Shown here in pieces: positions 8,197 through 52,731 of a DNA stretch of 64,000 nt. The translations under genes were made by a program, and so were the position numbers. The stretch is from Christiangramia fulva (lineage in GTDB: Bacteria; Bacteroidota; Bacteroidia; Flavobacteriales; Flavobacteriaceae). Under the pieces are notes generated by a model. It made no database searches. It saw only the letters and a list, made by a program, of their open reading frames with translations, and was not told the origin of the DNA. Numbering within the stretch: the stretch's first letter is position 1; each line of letters starts with the position of its first letter. The stretch spans positions 3,968,001 through 4,032,000 of the forward strand of contig NZ_CP028136.1 in NCBI RefSeq assembly GCF_003024155.1. The letters are read 5' to 3'.

Positions 8197-9456
8197 ATGA
8201 AACAAAACACCTCCCAAAAAACATCTATTTTCAAAGGCCTCGGACCCGGATTATTACTTGCCGGCGCTGCCATTGGCGTTTCCCATCTCGTGCAGGCAAC
8301 ACGCGCAGGAGCTGACTACGGATTTCTGCTGATCTGGGTGCTCGCACTCGCCTGTATCACCAAATATCCCTTTCTCGAATTTGGTCCCAGATACGCAGCC
8401 GCGACCGGTGACCATCTCATTCATGGATATAAGAAAATGGGCAAATTTCCTTACTGGACCTTTATTTTAATCACCGTAGGCAGCATGTTTATCATCCAGG
8501 CCGCGGTGACCATTGTAACTGCCGGACTGGCGGAAAGGCTCTTTGGAATGGGATGGGATAATTTTACCTGGAGCTTCGTAATTATCGGCCTCTGTATTCT
8601 TTTGCTTTTAATTGGGAAATATCCCGCCCTGGATAAGGCGATGAAAATAATCGTTAGCGTACTTGGTCTTGCTACTTTGACAGCGGTAATACTGGCCTTC
8701 GGGGAAGGAAGATTAGATCAGGCTTTAGAAATGGAAGCTCCCGCTGTCTGGAATAAAGTAGGGATCGCTTTTATCATTTCTTTTATGGGATGGATGCCTA
8801 TTCCGTTGGACGCCTCGGTCTGGCATTCTATCTGGACCAGGGAAAAAGCGATTTCCAATAAAAGCAAGACGAGCCTCCGGGAGGCTTTTGCCGATTTCAA
8901 TATCGGTTACCTGGCTGCGGCTTTTATCGGACTCCTTTTCTTTTTAATGGGGGTCTTGATCATGTTTGGTAGCGGAATTAGTTTCTCTGGAAGCGCAGTT
9001 GAATTCTCCGGGCAGTTGATCGATCTCTACGGAAAGACCCTTGGCGACTGGAGTAAACCCATAATTGCGGTGGCGGCCTTTATCGCCATGTTCTCCACTA
9101 CACTCGCAGTCACAGATGCATTTCCACGGGTAATCGCTGAAATTTTCGCCGAAGAAAAACAGTCTACAGAATCCCAAAAATGGAAAAATTACCGTTGGAA
9201 TGTTTTCCTCATTCCCGGACTTTCCCTGCTTATTCTGTACTTTTTTACGGCTTCTTTTACCGTCTTGATCGATTTTGCGACGGCTCTTTCATTCATCTCG
9301 GCACCATTTCTTGCCTGGTTCAATTACAGGCTTATCACAGGAAAACAAACTCCTGAAGAAGCAAAACCGGGAAAAGCATACCGGATTTTCAGTGTTCTAT
9401 GCCTGGTTGTATTGGTTCTTTTTAATCTGGTGTACATCTACACTTTATTTCAATAA
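8197..9456 (+). CDS. NRAMP-superfamily membrane carrier lacking the metal-binding DPGN motif
   Basis: The 419 residues carry about 11 hydrophobic helices. The opening GPGLLLAGAAIGVSHLVQAT (residues 16-35) aligns with NRAMP helix 1, where classic Mn/Fe transporters have Asp-Pro-Gly-Asn; here the stretch is Gly-Val-Ser-His. In helix 6 the usual MPHN motif is replaced by a segment reading GWMPIPLDASVW. Both metal-coordinating elements of the family are therefore changed, so a substrate other than Mn/Fe is possible. The gene stands alone behind a repeat element and ends in a terminator. The family call is firm, the substrate unknown. Confidence 0.82.
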   Translation: MKQNTSQKTSIFKGLGPGLLLAGAAIGVSHLVQATRAGADYGFLLIWVLALACITKYPFLEFGPRYAAATGDHLIHGYKKMGKFPYWTFILITVGSMFIIQAAVTIVTAGLAERLFGMGWDNFTWSFVIIGLCILLLLIGKYPALDKAMKIIVSVLGLATLTAVILAFGEGRLDQALEMEAPAVWNKVGIAFIISFMGWMPIPLDASVWHSIWTREKAISNKSKTSLREAFADFNIGYLAAAFIGLLFFLMGVLIMFGSGISFSGSAVEFSGQLIDLYGKTLGDWSKPIIAVAAFIAMFSTTLAVTDAFPRVIAEIFAEEKQSTESQKWKNYRWNVFLIPGLSLLILYFFTASFTVLIDFATALSFISAPFLAWFNYRLITGKQTPEEAKPGKAYRIFSVLCLVVLVLFNLVYIYTLFQ

Positions 9457-46200: not shown

Positions 46201-46224
46201 TAAAAAAGGGGAAAAATCCCCTTG
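46201..46224 (-). terminator. Intrinsic terminator of the pxp operon
   Basis: On the minus strand AAGGGG and CCCCTT form a stem with a six-base loop, followed by TTTT. It lies about 155 bases after the pxpC stop and 64 bases before the next gene start, so it ends the pxp transcript. Confidence 0.7.
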
Positions 46225-46380
46225 TATGAAAAGATCCCTCCATCTACATTTGTCTTAGTCATTTTAGTAAAGCTAAAGTGTTTTGGGGCAAAAAAGTGTC
46301 AGCTTTGTGGATATAGTTCTGAGTAGGGTCTTTTCTATAGCAAACATGGCGGCACTTTTTTATTTGCCCCTACCCAAACT

Positions 46381-47241
46381 CTAATAATCTACTTTTTTAA
46401 ACCGAATTTTTTCGCCAGGCATTTTTTGGGAAAGCACCTGTTTGCCAAATTCACTTAACTGAAGTATGCGAGGATATCCGCCTGTAGTCTGACAATCCTG
46501 CATCAAAGCAATGACATTACCTGCCGGAGTGAGTTGAACCGTTCCGGGAAGAACGGGGCCCGTGAGTATAGGCTCAATTTCATTTGAAAATTTTTCAGCA
46601 AAACTTATCGCCATCCGGTTGCTCGAAACCTCCAGTGAAAAATAAACTTTGAAAATTTCTTCCTGCTGTTCTTCTGATAATTTATCGAATTCAGGACCGG
46701 GAAAAGCATCTATTGATTTGTCAAAAAGATAATTTTCATCAACTTTTATACTCGCATTCGTAGATCTGGTTTTTAGCGGAAATTCGTGAATTTTAAGAAA
46801 ATAATTTTTCTCAAGTTTAAAATTCCGGGTAATTCCCCTGTACCAGCTTCGGCTATTCATTACTTTTTCTGTATCAAAACCACCGGAAACACCAAGATAT
46901 GCCCGAAAACCTGATTTTCTTTTTCCAAATTTTAAAACATCCCCGTTTTCAACCTGCAGTAACTCATTTCTTTTTACAGGATTCCCATTTACAGCAGCAG
47001 AAAGATCGGCACCACTCAAACAAATATTTATAGCTGTATGGAATTTTAATTGAGGCCCCTGTAAAGTAATTTCCATAACTGCAGCATCAACAGGATTTCC
47101 AAGAAGCAGGTTGACAATCTTCGCAGCATATTTATCCATGACACCACTTACAGGAACTCCAAATTCCATAAATCCAAAACGTCCGTTATCCTGAATTGTG
47201 GAAAATAATCCGGGTTGTAATATTTCAATTTCAGCTTTCAT
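46381..47241 (-). CDS. pxpC: 5-Oxoprolinase subunit C (biotin-dependent carboxyltransferase-like, KipA family)
   Basis: The 286 residues start at the ATG at 47241 (MKAEIEILQPG), overlapping pxpB by 11 bases; a longer frame at 47304 is entirely within pxpB. Family landmarks are GLFSTIQDNGRFGFMEFGVP, SGVMDKYAAKIVNLLLGNP, AYLGVSGGFDTEKVMNSRS, and GNVIALMQDCQTTGGYPRIL. PxpC with PxpB and PxpA hydrolyses 5-oxoproline (pyroglutamate) to glutamate with ATP in the cytosol. It is the last gene of the operon. Confidence 0.93.
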   Translation of the reverse strand: MKAEIEILQPGLFSTIQDNGRFGFMEFGVPVSGVMDKYAAKIVNLLLGNPVDAAVMEITLQGPQLKFHTAINICLSGADLSAAVNGNPVKRNELLQVENGDVLKFGKRKSGFRAYLGVSGGFDTEKVMNSRSWYRGITRNFKLEKNYFLKIHEFPLKTRSTNASIKVDENYLFDKSIDAFPGPEFDKLSEEQQEEIFKVYFSLEVSSNRMAISFAEKFSNEIEPILTGPVLPGTVQLTPAGNVIALMQDCQTTGGYPRILQLSEFGKQVLSQKMPGEKIRFKKVDY

Positions 47242-47962
47242 AATTTTCACTTTTAAACTGAAATTGTCCTGCATTGATCTCTTCTTCCAAAGCAAGATAT
47301 TCATCCCTGGAAACCGCGTAAAATTTTAAATGATCTCCGGCTGAAAAAGGAGACGGATTTTGAAGTTTTGGGTTGAATAATTTTACCGGTGTTCTGCCTA
47401 AAATTTGCCAGCCGCCGGGACTATTTTCGGGATAAATTCCGGTTTGATTTCCACCTATTCCAACCGAACCTTTTTCTACCTGTTTTCGAGGAGAATTTTT
47501 CCGCGGAAAATGAAGTTTTTCATCAAGCCCTCCGAGGTATAAAAATCCGGGTAAAAAACCTAAAAAATAAATAAGGTAAACAGGCCGGGTATGGAGCTCA
47601 ATAATTTCGCTGATACTGATATTTTTTTGCTCAGAAATCAACTGAAGATCGAAACCAAATTCTTCATCATAACATACCGGAACATAAAATAATCTCGAGT
47701 TCCCTTTTTTTTCTATTTTAGCAGTCTTCAGAAGTGATTTTAGACGCGAAAACTCACTATAAGCATCCTCTATAGTAGAGTCGTAATTAATTAATAATGA
47801 GTTGTATGTATTTAGCACCTCAACTTTTACTTTAAATTCTGAATTTTTGATCAGTCTTTTATAAAACAATACTTTTTCAAGCTGTTCAGAGCTGATCTCA
47901 GGTTTAAAATTGATCAAAATAGCCTGCTCCCCCATCGGTACTATTTGAGGATAAACAGGCAT
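47231..47962 (-). CDS. pxpB: 5-Oxoprolinase subunit B (KipI family)
   Basis: The 243 residues match the KipI/allophanate-hydrolase subunit 1 family: IVPMGEQAILINFKPEISSE at the N-terminus, YVPVCYDEEFGFDLQLISEQ, GFLPGFLYLGGLDEKLHFPR and VGIGGNQTGIYPENSPGGWQ near the end, then ILGRTPVKLF. In Bacillus the homologue also inhibits the KinA kinase, but in a pxpABC setting the metabolic role is primary. It starts where pxpA stops (shared base 47962). Confidence 0.94.
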   Translation of the reverse strand: MPVYPQIVPMGEQAILINFKPEISSEQLEKVLFYKRLIKNSEFKVKVEVLNTYNSLLINYDSTIEDAYSEFSRLKSLLKTAKIEKKGNSRLFYVPVCYDEEFGFDLQLISEQKNISISEIIELHTRPVYLIYFLGFLPGFLYLGGLDEKLHFPRKNSPRKQVEKGSVGIGGNQTGIYPENSPGGWQILGRTPVKLFNPKLQNPSPFSAGDHLKFYAVSRDEYLALEEEINAGQFQFKSENYES

Positions 47963-48702
47963 TAGGAATTGATAATTGAAATGCCTTCTTCGGCAAATTT
48001 TTTATGTAGATATTCAAGAATTTCAACAGCCGAATTCGTATCGCTGTGAATGCAAAAAGTATCGGCTTTACAGTTGATTTTTTCGCCTGAAATTGTGGTG
48101 ATTTTTTTATCCCGGAACATGGAAAAAACATGCTCAAAAACCTGCTCTTTTTGATCGATTACCGCATTGGGTTTTGACCGCGAAACCAGGCTTAGATCAT
48201 GCTCATAATTTCTATCACCGAAAACCTCGCAGAACAGTTCATATTTCCCCATGGCATATTCAGAAATTTTAGAATTAAAAGGCACAAAAAGCCTGTAATT
48301 TTCTTCTAATAAATCAAGGGCATCGATTACAGTTCTGGCAATATTTTCATCTTTTGCCGCATCATTATAAAGCGCGCCATGAAGTTTTATATGGGAAAGC
48401 TTTCCACCTTCAGCTTCTATGATCTGCTTCAATGTGAGCACCTGCGCTTCGATAGAAAGTTTTAGATCTTCATCCGACATCTTCATACTTTTCCGCCCGA
48501 AATTTGTTTTATCGGGATAAGAAGGATGAGCACCAATTTCTATTTTATTTTCCATAGCTAACTGTACGGTTCTATGCATGGTATCAAGGTTACCGGCATG
48601 GCCACCGCAGGCAATATTACAGGCAGAAATAAGCGGCATTAAATCGGCATCATGTTCTCCGCCTTCACCGAGGTCGCAGTTAATATGTATCTTTTTTTTC
48701 AT
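47962..48702 (-). CDS. pxpA: 5-Oxoprolinase subunit A (LamB/YcsF family)
   Basis: The 246 residues start at the ATG at 48702 (MKKKIHINCDLGEGGEHDAD); a longer frame to 48726 lies inside the carrier gene. Conserved parts are NIACGGHAGNLDTMHRTVQL, KIEIGAHPSYPDKTNFGRKS, KLHGALYNDAAKDE and FCIHSDTNSAVEIL. It is the catalytic TIM-barrel-like subunit of the ATP-dependent 5-oxoprolinase. The stop of the preceding carrier gene and this start share one base (TAATG). Confidence 0.94.
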   Translation of the reverse strand: MKKKIHINCDLGEGGEHDADLMPLISACNIACGGHAGNLDTMHRTVQLAMENKIEIGAHPSYPDKTNFGRKSMKMSDEDLKLSIEAQVLTLKQIIEAEGGKLSHIKLHGALYNDAAKDENIARTVIDALDLLEENYRLFVPFNSKISEYAMGKYELFCEVFGDRNYEHDLSLVSRSKPNAVIDQKEQVFEHVFSMFRDKKITTISGEKINCKADTFCIHSDTNSAVEILEYLHKKFAEEGISIINS

Positions 48703-49922
48703 TACCAGTTCTGAATTACGTTCCACACCGATTTAAGCCCAAGGAAAAAAGCCAGGGCAATAACCGCTACTCCCAAAATATTCTGAAAGAGTGTATTTTT
48801 ATCTTCACCCATCAGAGAACGGCGATTCACTATCCAAAATAAGAAAAATGCCACAATCGGCAGCACCAGACCGTTAGAGATTTGAGCGAAATTGATTATT
48901 TGTACAGGTTTCAACCCAATCCCAGAAAAAATGATACCGAGCATCAGAACGATTATCCAGACACTCTTGAACCGACCCGAAGCAAAACCTCCTTTCCACC
49001 CTAAACATCCTTTTACCACAAAAGCTGCGGCCAGGGGCGCAGTTATGGCAGAAGTTATTCCAGCAGCAAGCAAGCCGAGAGCAAGGAAATATTTCGCTAA
49101 ACTCCCAAACAATGGTTCCAGGCCAACAGCAAGGTCAGCCGCATTCTCAATCCCTTGAACATCTGCAGCAGCCGCACAGATCAAAATCGCCATAGATACC
49201 AATCCTCCCAGTATGATGGAAAAAACCAGTTCTTTTCTAAGAATTGGCAAATTTTTCCTGCCGTTCCATTTTTCACTTACCAGTGAAGCGTGAAGAAAAA
49301 GGTTATAAGGCACCACAGTAGTTCCCACCAGGGCGATAATCGTGAATAAGCCTGCATTAAACTGCTGCGGAATAAAACCTTCAAGAACTTCAGAAAGTTT
49401 TGGTCTGGTAAGAAAAGCTGTCACAATAAAGGAAATGCTCATCAGGAAAACAAGAGCAATAAAAGCTTTTTCAATCTTTTTATAGGTTCCCAGCCATAAA
49501 AGTAAAAAAGCAAAAAGGCCAATAATAAGGCTCCAGAAATTAAGAGAAAAGTCACCAATGACAATATTTAAACTTCCTGTAATTGCTTCCATTCCTAAAA
49601 CGGCGCCGGTAATATTTCCTGCTTCGTAGGCAGCATTTCCTATCACTATGGCTGAAAAAATAAGGATCAGAACAGTATTTCTTATCACCGGAGGCTTTAG
49701 TTCCTGCCTTATGTTTTCGCTAAGGCTTTTTCCTGTGATCAATCCTAATCGAGCCGACATTTCCTGAAGAATGATACAGGCAATAACAGATATAAGCAGG
49801 GCCCACAAAAGGGAATATCCAAAATGAACCCCGGCGAGACTACATACGGTTACTGTACCGGGACCAATAAAAGCTGCAGAAACAAGAATTCCAGGTCCCA
49901 GGTTTTTCAGAAAATCCTTCAC
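48702..49922 (-). CDS. NRAMP-superfamily carrier in the 5-oxoprolinase operon (YcsG-like)
   Basis: The 406 residues have about 11 helices. Helix 1 reads LGPGILVSAAFIGPGTVTVC, where DPGN of metal transporters is replaced by Gly-Pro-Gly-Thr; helix 6 reads VGTTVVPYNLFLHASL, with the MPH of the metal site changed to VPY. The start is a GTG at 49922 that overlaps the DUF2891 stop (GTGA), so coupling is tight on both sides. In Bacillus subtilis the NRAMP-like ycsG also neighbours ycsF/pxpA. A role in uptake of 5-oxoproline or a related acid fits better than metal transport, but this is an inference. Confidence 0.85.
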   Translation of the reverse strand: MKDFLKNLGPGILVSAAFIGPGTVTVCSLAGVHFGYSLLWALLISVIACIILQEMSARLGLITGKSLSENIRQELKPPVIRNTVLILIFSAIVIGNAAYEAGNITGAVLGMEAITGSLNIVIGDFSLNFWSLIIGLFAFLLLWLGTYKKIEKAFIALVFLMSISFIVTAFLTRPKLSEVLEGFIPQQFNAGLFTIIALVGTTVVPYNLFLHASLVSEKWNGRKNLPILRKELVFSIILGGLVSMAILICAAAADVQGIENAADLAVGLEPLFGSLAKYFLALGLLAAGITSAITAPLAAAFVVKGCLGWKGGFASGRFKSVWIIVLMLGIIFSGIGLKPVQIINFAQISNGLVLPIVAFFLFWIVNRRSLMGEDKNTLFQNILGVAVIALAFFLGLKSVWNVIQNW

Positions 49923-51082
49923 TCTTTTTCAGGATTTCCCGCCTTCATTAAGGTATAAATCGCGAAAGTTCCCAACCAGTGGCCACCTTCATAACTATCT
50001 CCTACTACATTGGGAAAGGATTTTGCAACATGTTTATCGGCAAGATTTTCCAAATGGCCGTATTTTTTAGGATATTCATTGGCCAGCCCGTAAAATACCC
50101 AGGCGCGGCTAAAATTAAGGCCGTCAAGGTGCACCAGTTTCCCGTCGGTCCTATCAGAAACTTCCCCTACTTCCATGTCGAAATCTTTATTTTTGAGCTG
50201 AGGCATAAAATCTTCCATCCACAGGTTAAAGGCGTTTTTAGGAAGCACTTTCCTCATTATATCAACCTCCTCAAGACAGGGAGAAAGAAAATCATACCCG
50301 CTGGGTTCCCAGGAAAGAGGACAATTATCATCTTTCAGATAAAAATCTTCAGCGCGTTTTTTAATGATTTTCATGAATTCTTCATTTCCGACAGTTTTTG
50401 CATAATCATAGGCAAAAGAAAGTGCAAAAGCAGTGTTGGTATGTTCCCCAACCCGAATAGGATAATTCAGTTTTGGAAGGAATTCTTCAAAACGCTGCAC
50501 GATTACCTGAGTTAATGGCTGCAAATTTTGATAGAGTTCCTGGCCCAGGGGATCATCCCAGGTTTTAAGAGCTTCAGCAAGTTTTAACAACCAGGCCCAG
50601 CCGTAAGTACGCTCATACGAATCACTCTCTTCCCTTTTAAAATACTTTATTTCGCCCTGAATATTTTCTTCAGAAAGAGAATTTTTTAAAGCTTCCCTTA
50701 CGGCTTCCTTTTTTTCGATTTCCGGAAAATTCTTTAATAAAGTAATTAAAGACCAATGCGCGTGAACAGAAGAATGCCAGTCAAAACAGCCGTAAAATGC
50801 AGGATGAAGTTCATGGGGTTCTCCTATGGCAGCCTTATTTTCCAGCGTCTGGCCGAGTTTATTGGGATATTCGGTATTTATACATTTCAGAGGTAATTCA
50901 ACCAATTTATTGGCTTCTTCAGTGGTGAGTACCACAGGGTCGATATTTTTCAAACTTTCAGGTATTAAATCCTCAGTAGACACAGAATCGGTGTTATCTG
51001 TTGCTTTTTCTATATCTTCAGATCGGTCTCCTTTACAGGAAATAAGTCCGAAAACGACAATTATCAAAATAAGTTTTTTCAT
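49919..51082 (-). CDS. DUF2891 family lipoprotein, first gene of the pxp operon
   Basis: The 387 residues begin with a lipoprotein signal (MKKLILIIVVFGLISC, lipidated Cys16), placing the protein in the periplasm or on the outer membrane. After an acidic linker the body shows conserved-looking, His/Trp/Glu-rich motifs: HPAFYGCFDWHSSVHAHW at 93-110, VGEHTNTAFALSFAYDYA, WEPSGYDFLSPCLEEVDIMR, HLDGLNFSRAWVFYGL and YEGGHWLGTFAIYTL. The alternating helices suggest an (alpha/alpha) toroid as in glycosidases and lyases. The function of DUF2891 is unknown. Four-base coupling to the carrier gene links it to 5-oxoproline use, perhaps releasing the substrate outside the inner membrane. Confidence 0.87.
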   Translation of the reverse strand: MKKLILIIVVFGLISCKGDRSEDIEKATDNTDSVSTEDLIPESLKNIDPVVLTTEEANKLVELPLKCINTEYPNKLGQTLENKAAIGEPHELHPAFYGCFDWHSSVHAHWSLITLLKNFPEIEKKEAVREALKNSLSEENIQGEIKYFKREESDSYERTYGWAWLLKLAEALKTWDDPLGQELYQNLQPLTQVIVQRFEEFLPKLNYPIRVGEHTNTAFALSFAYDYAKTVGNEEFMKIIKKRAEDFYLKDDNCPLSWEPSGYDFLSPCLEEVDIMRKVLPKNAFNLWMEDFMPQLKNKDFDMEVGEVSDRTDGKLVHLDGLNFSRAWVFYGLANEYPKKYGHLENLADKHVAKSFPNVVGDSYEGGHWLGTFAIYTLMKAGNPEKE

Positions 51083-51098
51083 TGGTATGGTTGTAAAA

Positions 51099-51112
51099 CC
51101 GGAAATTTCCGG
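51099..51112. promoter_or_regulatory. Perfect 14-bp palindrome in the 5' leader of the DUF2891-pxp operon
   Basis: CCGGAAATTTCCGG is fully self-complementary and lies between the -7 promoter motif (51135-51142) and the ATG (51082), where a repressor site would be expected. No regulator gene is adjacent. Confidence 0.5.
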
Positions 51113-51134
51113 AAGTGGTTTTTTAAGGTTCTTC

Positions 51135-51142
51135 CAAAAATA
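51135..51142 (-). promoter_or_regulatory. -7 promoter element of the DUF2891-pxp operon
   Basis: TATTTTTG on the minus strand (51142 to 51135) matches TAnnTTTG and would give a leader of about 45 nt. A -33 TTG is not evident. Confidence 0.4.
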
Positions 51143-51192
51143 TAAAAAAGCGATAAAAGGATAAGTTAATTAAAACCGAAGATACTTCTGAT

Positions 51193-52731
51193 TTATCCAA
51201 ACCAGCCCTCACGGTCAAGACTTCTGTACTGAATGGCTTCACCTATATGGTTGCCACAGATATCTTCAGAAGCTTCAAGATCAGCAATAGTGCGGGAAAC
51301 TTTAAGAATTCGGTCATAAGCCCTTGCAGAAAGATTCAATCTTTCCATAGCAGTTTTCAGCAGATTTTTGCTCGCGTCATCAAGTTTACAACATTTTCTC
51401 AGCAATGAAGGTCCCATTTGCGCATTATAGTGAATGTTTTCATGGTTTTCATACCGCTTTGCCTGAATTTCCCTGGCTGCCGTTACCCGCTTCCTGATCT
51501 CTATACTATTTTCACCCTTTCTTTCCTCATTAAGCTTATCAAAAGGAACCGGCGTAACTTCAATATGAATATCTATACGGTCCAAAAGCGGGCCACTAAC
51601 TTTACTTAAATAGCGCTGCATTTCAGCCGGCGAAGATGTCACCGGCGCCGAAGGATCATTAAAATAGCCTCCCGGGCTCGGATTCATGCTCGCGACCAGC
51701 ATAAAACTGGAAGGGTAGGTAACACTGAATTTTGCTCTCGAAATGGTCACTTCCCGGTCTTCGAGCGGCTGCCGCATCACTTCCAAAACTCCACGTTTGA
51801 ATTCCGGGAGTTCATCCAGGAAAAGTACCCCGTTATGAGCCAGCGAAATTTCTCCTGGCTGCGGATATGTACCACCGCCTACAAGGGCTACATCTGAAAT
51901 TGTATGGTGCGGACTTCGGAAAGGTCGCTGTGCCAGTAAGCCCACATTTTCCCTGATCTTTCCCGCCACACTATGGATCTTGGTGGTTTCGAGAGCTTCC
52001 TGTAGAGTCATGGGCGGAAGAATACTGGGCAAACGTTTGGCCAACATTGTTTTTCCTGCTCCCGGTGGCCCGATTAAAATAATATTATGGCCTCCAGCGG
52101 CAGCAATTTCCATACATCTTTTTATAGATTCCTGGCCTTTTACATCTGAAAAATCATTATCAAGGTTGTCTAGGTTATTATAGAAAGATTCCCGGGTATT
52201 TATTTCGGTTCGTTCCAGGGCCACTCCTTTATCAAAAAAATCGGTCACCTGGGTGATATTCCTTATCCCATAAACCTCAAGATCTTTGACAATTGCGGCT
52301 TCACGCGCGTTCTGTTCCGGAAGGATAAAGCCTTTGTATCCTTCCTTTTTCGCCTGAATGGCAATGGGCAATGCACCTTTTATGGGTTGTAAGCTTCCGT
52401 CAAGGGAAAGTTCCCCCATTATAAGGTAATCTGAAATATTATCGGCATTTATTTGTTGGGAAGCAGCCAGGATTCCGATGGCAAAAGTAAGATCATAGGC
52501 AGATCCTTCTTTACGAAGATCGGCAGGCGCCATATTGATAATGATCTTTTTTCCAGGAAGTTTAAAATTGTTGTTCTGAAGAGCAGCGGTAATGCGATAA
52601 CTCGATTCTTTCACTGCATTGTCTGGCAGGCCCACCAAATGGTAACCAATTCCTGAAGTTACATTCACTTCTACAGTAATCGTTGTGGCTTCAACTCCAA
52701 AAACTGCACTCCCATATACCTTTACCAGCAT
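51193..52731 (-). CDS. comM: YifB/ComM-family Mg-chelatase-like AAA+ ATPase
   Basis: The 512 residues comprise an N-terminal Lon-like domain (FGVEATTITVEVNVTSGIGY), a AAA+ core with Walker A IGPPGAGKTMLAKRLPSILP, Walker B GVLFLDELPEF, RQPLEDREVTISRAKFSVTY and an arginine-finger region, and the C-terminal helical domain LNLSARAYDRILKVSRTIAD. ComM is a hexameric helicase that promotes branch migration when foreign DNA is integrated during natural transformation. Function here is by family membership. It is monocistronic. Confidence 0.95.
   Translation of the reverse strand: MLVKVYGSAVFGVEATTITVEVNVTSGIGYHLVGLPDNAVKESSYRITAALQNNNFKLPGKKIIINMAPADLRKEGSAYDLTFAIGILAASQQINADNISDYLIMGELSLDGSLQPIKGALPIAIQAKKEGYKGFILPEQNAREAAIVKDLEVYGIRNITQVTDFFDKGVALERTEINTRESFYNNLDNLDNDFSDVKGQESIKRCMEIAAAGGHNIILIGPPGAGKTMLAKRLPSILPPMTLQEALETTKIHSVAGKIRENVGLLAQRPFRSPHHTISDVALVGGGTYPQPGEISLAHNGVLFLDELPEFKRGVLEVMRQPLEDREVTISRAKFSVTYPSSFMLVASMNPSPGGYFNDPSAPVTSSPAEMQRYLSKVSGPLLDRIDIHIEVTPVPFDKLNEERKGENSIEIRKRVTAAREIQAKRYENHENIHYNAQMGPSLLRKCCKLDDASKNLLKTAMERLNLSARAYDRILKVSRTIADLEASEDICGNHIGEAIQYRSLDREGWFG

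Follow-up and report, generated by a model that had tools for sequence, protein, structure and literature searches.

The window analysed here, a stretch of 64,000 nucleotides from Christiangramia fulva, carries on its minus strand, between positions 46381 and 51082, five genes encoding, in operon order, a lipoprotein of the DUF2891 family, an NRAMP-like carrier and the proteins PxpA, PxpB, and PxpC. Starting from the DUF2891 gene, neighbouring genes overlap by 4, 1, 1, and 11 bases, and each product matches its Pfam family far above the cut-off (PF11199, 461 bits; PF01566, 302; PF03746, 271; PF02682, 225; PF02626, 221). These overlaps and matches bear out the five-gene operon proposed in a preliminary description of this DNA, although the span given there, 46381..51142, takes in 60 bases upstream of the first gene, which starts at 51082. 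Those of the best protein matches that carry a name belong to Christiangramia/Gramella, Salegentibacter, Zunongwangia, and related genera, and the genome, a single contig of 4.38 Mb, holds one DUF2891 gene. The features of the locus are collected in Table 1.

Table 1. Features of the five-gene operon and its borders, in positions of the window
Feature	Position	Strand	Remarks
DUF2891 lipoprotein	49919..51082	-	387 amino acids, ATG start; lipobox LISC at residues 13-16; predicted (alpha/alpha)6 toroid
NRAMP-fold carrier, YcsG/PxpT kind	48702..49922	-	406 amino acids, GTG start
Carrier helix-1 motif GPGT, residues 20-23	49854..49865	-	DPGN at this place in metal transporters
Carrier helix-6 motif VVPYN, residues 203-207	49302..49316	-	(V/I)MPH at this place in metal transporters
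PxpA, LamB/YcsF family	47962..48702	-	246 amino acids; ATG internal to a longer mechanical open reading frame
PxpB	47231..47962	-	243 amino acids
PxpC	46381..47241	-	286 amino acids; ATG internal to a longer open reading frame
Bacteroidota-type promoter-like site TTA-N19-TATATTTTTG	51135..51164	-	one mismatch; weak evidence
Terminator-like hairpin with T-rich tail	about 46205..46241	-	140-176 bases past pxpC; weak evidence

The three families of the PxpABC subunits, PF03746, PF02682, and PF02626, are encoded together in the operon. The NCBIfam cut-offs are reached for the PxpA subfamily and for PxpB, and PxpC stays below those of the equivalog NF045499 (180 of 500 bits) and of TIGR00724 (209.5 of 230.2). 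The closest known systems are the PxpT-PxpABC cluster of Corynebacterium glutamicum and the YcsG-PxpABC cluster of Bacillus subtilis, which, like the operon studied here, join an NRAMP-fold carrier and a three-subunit ATP-dependent 5-oxoprolinase in one unit (PMC13274462; this paper and PMC10448178, PMC12795558, PMC10040529, and PMC10434189 are cited throughout from excerpts). The pairing of carrier and PxpABC is therefore already known in kind; our likening of the carrier to YcsG and PxpT, which are known here by description, rests on family and gene linkage. The C. glutamicum cluster consists of pxpTABC with no DUF2891 gene, whereas the C. fulva operon opens with an exported DUF2891 lipoprotein. 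Among 148 evenly drawn Bacteroidota genomes, PxpA was found above cut-off in 34 and PF02538, a family taking in hydantoinases and related enzymes besides oxoprolinases, in 22; the two never co-occur (Fisher p 0.002) and look like alternatives in this phylum.

In NRAMP metal transporters, the metal site is formed by the motif DPGN in helix 1 and by MPH in helix 6, and both were present in three control metal transporters. The C. fulva carrier belongs to the same sequence family (PF01566 cut-off, 29.8 bits) and has GPGT and VPY in their place, which confirms the loss of the metal motifs noticed in the preliminary description. The replacement is uniform in the branch: when we took all 35 of the 148 Bacteroidota genomes with a match to the carrier at E < 1e-40, GPGT was found in 35/35 and helix 6 read VPY in 34 and VTY in 1, so that none keeps the metal-site residues Asp, Asn, and Met. 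All 35 genomes encode PxpA or PF02538, against 21/113 of the other Bacteroidota genomes. The carrier gene lies at most 3 kb from pxpA in 21 of them (in 20 the matched parts are no more than 35 bases apart, in G107 about 1.2 kb) and at most 3.5 kb from a PF02538 gene in 8, so that 29/35 carriers are linked to a 5-oxoprolinase-type gene and 6 stand beside neither. Another NRAMP protein of the window genome, the metal-type L113 (G000:C1:1375915-1376982; 633 amino acids), retains both DPGN and MPH and carries a universal stress protein domain fused to its C-terminal end. A further, very divergent NRAMP-family gene lies in the window itself, at 8296-9342 on the plus strand (PF01566, 54 bits); its helix-1 and helix-6 stretches fit neither the metal type nor the 5-oxoproline (5-OP, pyroglutamate) type.

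Outside the Bacteroidota, haloarchaeal plasmid homologues of the carrier (43-48% identical) directly precede genes for hydantoinase/oxoprolinase subunits A and B in 4/4 regions read, out of 23 haloarchaeal records. These megaplasmid regions (L132, L204, L205, and L206) are organized as CopG regulator-NRAMP-like-HyuA-HyuB operons, one followed by a racemase-family gene and another by a maleate cis-trans isomerase gene, and the demetallised motif was seen in L132, the only one checked for it. A Pseudoalteromonas homologue had no hydantoinase/oxoprolinase neighbour. Judged on sequence, the combination of motif loss and co-occurrence favours 5-OP as the cargo, and with the metal ligands gone in 35/35 an ordinary metal transporter was rejected as a candidate function. 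C. glutamicum, moreover, needs PxpT to grow on 5-OP (PMC13274462). The earlier proposal that the carrier takes part in 5-OP scavenging is supported in this way, and both the genome context and the published YcsG and PxpT mutants give good support to an operon for scavenging pyroglutamate in which 5-OP enters through an NRAMP-fold carrier.

The part played by DUF2891 is less direct. Its PF11199 match spans the whole domain, and the predicted structure, an (alpha/alpha)6 toroid, matches 8IEU, in agreement with the toroid-like helical pattern noted for this exported lipoprotein in the preliminary description. The entries 8IEU and 8IEV, known here from their title, are the crystal structure of Campylobacter jejuni Cj0554, of the same family and fold. 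The fold is common to many glycosidases, and cellobiose 2-epimerase and unsaturated glucuronyl hydrolase are (alpha/alpha)6 toroids as well; with about 10% identity, no Pfam match, and middling Z, the resemblance to these is one of fold only. When 70 DUF2891 members were compared with Pfam (14 families at E up to 1) and with the PDB by profile search, no convincing relative outside DUF2891 appeared, and no N-acylglucosamine/cellobiose 2-epimerase family was among the 14. In the open-licence full-text literature on DUF2891, Cj0554, and 8IEU, we found no reaction for the family and no tie to an NRAMP-like carrier; the excerpts name it along with DUF969/979 and give it no role of its own (PMC12795558; PMC10040529, table). 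The view that DUF2891 is an undescribed family is nevertheless rejected, given the crystal structure and a mutant of the C. jejuni operon cj0552-cj0554, which encodes DUF969-DUF979-DUF2891 and whose carrier, unlike the one studied here, is not of the NRAMP fold.

The neighbours of DUF2891 genes were surveyed in three samples, the 148 Bacteroidota genomes, 385 genomes from the class of a Maricaulis genome, and a cross-phylum scan comprising the best 80 of 587 loci for a Klebsiella plasmid query, which is a biased sample. In the last of these, markers were found by profile searches of all frames, with profiles built from window and locus sequences. DUF2891 occurs in 17/148 Bacteroidota genomes, and 7/17 loci adjoin 5-OP genes, namely the carrier with PxpABC in five, the carrier alone in G053, and an OPLAH-type gene with the carrier in G108; tested against PxpA alone, DUF2891 presence gives 8/17 versus 26/131 (p 0.03). 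In two Bacteroidota genomes (L017/L018 [L131] and L014/L019), the gene is split over two reading frames and is apparently broken or mis-sequenced. The Maricaulis class yielded 17 matches, and 10/14 new full-length loci stand in 5-OP clusters (10/15 if the centre genome G192, whose gene L105 is solo, is included; the distant match in G201 and a fragment in G296 were also left out of the 14). The G201 protein (L168, G201:C12:75437-76255; 85 bits) is distantly DUF2891-like and may represent a separate subfamily. In the cross-phylum scan, 26/80 loci have 5-OP genes.

With the NRAMP-like carrier, the orders DUF2891-carrier-PxpABC, carrier-PxpABC-DUF2891, DUF2891-carrier, and DUF2891-OPLAH-carrier were observed, and with DUF979 the orders PxpBCA-DUF969-DUF979-DUF2891, OPLAH-DUF969-DUF979-DUF2891, and DUF969-DUF979-DUF2891-OPLAH, while in Streptomyces PxpCBA faces DUF969-DUF979-Pcp-DUF2891. 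DUF2891 thus meets two kinds of carrier (NRAMP-like and DUF969/DUF979) and two kinds of hydrolase (PxpABC and the OPLAH/PF02538 type), and the evidence is therefore stronger than that of any single operon. Where the gene stands alone, PxpA or PF02538 is encoded elsewhere in 43/50 genomes (PxpA in 29, PF02538 in 29, neither in 7), a count with no matched baseline that covers 50 of the 54 solo loci of the scan (L055, L066, L076, and L082 were left out). The neighbours of solo genes (20 selected and 10 more, with one repeat and two from a 5-OP locus) showed no recurrent family and included Rsm22, PriA, TetR, MFS, PfkB, SpoU, and peptidases of differing families; four solo genes (L027, L105, L125, and L128) adjoin peptidase genes of the families S58, M28, M54, and M24. 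DUF2891 is also carried by 35 Klebsiella plasmid records, one of which (L021) has DUF969-DUF979-DUF2891 near urea-amidolyase-like genes and a gene annotated as a putative hydro-lyase.

A further pattern concerns the compartment in which DUF2891 is predicted to reside, exported proteins being called here by our own hydropathy and start-codon rule rather than by SignalP. All 12 DUF2891 proteins encoded beside an NRAMP-like carrier are predicted to be exported (11 in the tree set plus L155; Bacteroidota, two Alphaproteobacteria, and one Maricaulis-class survey genome), whereas the 33 beside DUF979 all lack a predicted signal (27 in the tree set plus 6 Maricaulis-class loci, with L158, apparently the same record as L025, counted once). 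Several exported calls rest on GTG or TTG starts, and L068 was scored cytosolic with no start codon assigned. Proteins with neither carrier partner are divided, with 36 predicted exported and 35 cytosolic. On the DUF2891 tree, the compartment label switches a minimum of 4 and a maximum of 8 times, and a DUF979 profile search of 395 Bacteroidota genomes gave no match over cut-off. If the pattern holds, DUF2891 acts at the outer face of the carrier where this is NRAMP-like and at the inner face where it is DUF969/979. An action outside the inner membrane, as the preliminary description had it, fits the lipoprotein of C. fulva but not the DUF979-linked relatives examined, for which no signal peptide is predicted.

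Taken together, we read the five genes as one 5-OP scavenging operon, an interpretation to which, in the full form given here, we attach close to even chances. The DUF2891 lipoprotein would be a toroid enzyme anchored outside the inner membrane that turns a compound containing or yielding 5-OP into free 5-OP; the NRAMP-fold carrier, devoid of metal ligands, would then move 5-OP over the inner membrane, as the mutants of its homologues suggest, and PxpABC would hydrolyse it to glutamate in an ATP-dependent ring opening, a chemistry established for the family and predicted here from sequence. In lineages with the DUF969/DUF979 transporter, the same DUF2891 reaction would follow uptake and take place in the cytosol. 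Locally, a plausible origin of 5-OP is the pyroglutamate that most signal-peptidase-I substrates of Bacteroidota acquire at their N terminus (PMC5837995); since the genome studied here also encodes a plant-type glutaminyl cyclase, pyroglutamyl material should be at hand. In our best reading, the DUF2891 protein of this operon provides 5-OP on the outer side of the inner membrane, whether through release, isomerisation, or cyclisation. We put first its release from a small pyroglutamyl compound, because DUF2891 also occurs without any 5-oxoprolinase, where the other product could be useful; isomerisation of 5-OP comes second and cyclisation of Glu/Gln third. The wider proposal, that DUF2891 is a new class of pyroglutamate enzyme whose compartment is set by its partner carrier, outside with the demetallised NRAMP-fold type and inside with DUF969/DUF979, is offered tentatively and seems to us rather doubtful.

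Several observations weigh against this interpretation. In the cross-phylum scan, 54/80 loci have no 5-OP marker, which means none within the stretch covered, several loci being short contigs with little flank (6 kb for G047). Among the Bacteroidota, 8/17 DUF2891 genomes lack PxpA, PF02538, a carrier of the NRAMP-like kind, and DUF979, the association with PxpA or PF02538 taken together is not significant (9/17 versus 47/131, p 0.19), and 16/21 genomes with the carrier beside PxpA have no DUF2891, which is therefore not needed for the use of 5-OP. The idea that DUF2891 is indispensable to the Pxp pathway was accordingly rejected. The link to 5-OP clusters anticipated in the preliminary description is real across phyla but not exclusive, so that of the scavenging system proposed there the carrier/PxpABC operon is well supported and the reaction of DUF2891 in it is a proposal. 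The compartment pattern rests on only one or two independent contrasts of carrier type on the tree and is therefore a pattern rather than a proven rule. In C. jejuni, the cj0552-4 mutant failed on 5-OP in a preliminary test, but three genes were removed (PMC12795558) and DUF2891 is therefore not isolated. As regards the carrier, the NCBIfam model NF037982 (Nramp family divalent metal transporter) accepts it with 84 bits against a cut-off of 50, although it stays below the cut-offs of the MntH model NF001923 and of TIGR01197. B. subtilis YcsG was itself reported as a Mn importer and renamed MntG, its overexpression leading to higher cell Mn and its promoter being bound by MntR (PMC10448178); in the term-matched passages of PMC10448178 and PMC13274462, the metal motifs are not discussed.

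Among other explanations, an unlikely one that nevertheless survives best is that DUF2891 is a racemase or epimerase of D-/L-5-oxoproline, or of a close lactam, which lets an L-specific carrier and hydrolase use both forms; such an enzyme would by necessity sit outside with the NRAMP-like carrier and could sit inside with a less choosy DUF969/979. We consider it improbable that DUF2891 makes 5-OP from external Glu/Gln, as an ATP-independent cyclase or a 5-oxoprolinase working in reverse. The Alcaligenes faecalis ATP-independent 5-oxoprolinase, compared here by description only, acts on 5-OP/glutamate, is exported with a Sec signal, and has an equilibrium favouring 5-OP (PMC13274462), and the response of cj0552-4 to glutamine fits as well; forming 5-OP and then spending ATP to reopen it looks wasteful, though, and only 10/984 genomes were reported to encode the A. 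faecalis enzyme (PMC13274462), as opposed to the frequency of DUF2891 in Bacteroidota given above. Equally improbable, in our estimate, is a general toroid enzyme, with glycans or peptides as possible substrates, that is carried along in some operons with no special link to 5-OP. The solo loci with their unrelated peptidases and other non-recurrent neighbours, the Bacteroidota genomes devoid of all tested 5-OP genes, and the fold shared with glycosidases agree with it, but 5-OP genes have been joined recurrently, in at least seven gene orders and in Bacteroidota, Proteobacteria, Actinobacteria, and Gemmatimonadota, and most solo genomes encode PxpA or PF02538 elsewhere. Finally, a Mn importer of the YcsG/MntG kind, feeding PxpA or coupling metal to nitrogen metabolism along with a metal-dependent or metal-handling DUF2891, would fit the YcsG findings, the NRAMP family membership, the HxxxH motif of DUF2891 (residues 103-107), and the entry for a Porphyromonas gingivalis DUF2891 gene in a table on the iron response (1.5-fold, next to a value of 0.099; PMC10434189), but is very improbable in view of the missing metal ligands, the separate intact NRAMP protein, the constant company of PxpA or PF02538, and the requirement for PxpT.

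As to the borders of the operon, the upstream gene is yifB (51193-52731), on the same strand and 110 bases from the DUF2891 gene. The promoter-like site, scored against a Bacteroidota consensus, and the terminator-like hairpin would bound a single transcript, for which they are weak evidence; the window holds no excess of promoter-like sites, with 25 as against the 35 expected from shuffles. Rfam and tRNA scans of the 64-kb window gave no match.

The scavenging interpretation would narrow DUF2891, a widespread family for which there is a crystal structure but we found no reaction in print, to one small-molecule pathway and a few candidate substrates. That the metal ligands are uniformly gone from an NRAMP branch co-occurring with PxpA or an oxoprolinase-type gene in 35/35 genomes bears on a dispute in print, namely whether YcsG-like proteins are carriers of Mn or of 5-oxoproline. 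Should the compartment of DUF2891 indeed be set by its partner, the NRAMP-fold carrier would take only the DUF2891 product and DUF969/979 its substrate as well, and Bacteroidota would recover the pyroglutamate put on the N termini of their exported proteins. An action of DUF2891 on pyroglutamyl compounds outside the membrane, if real, might also complete the recycling of this N-terminal pyroglutamate.

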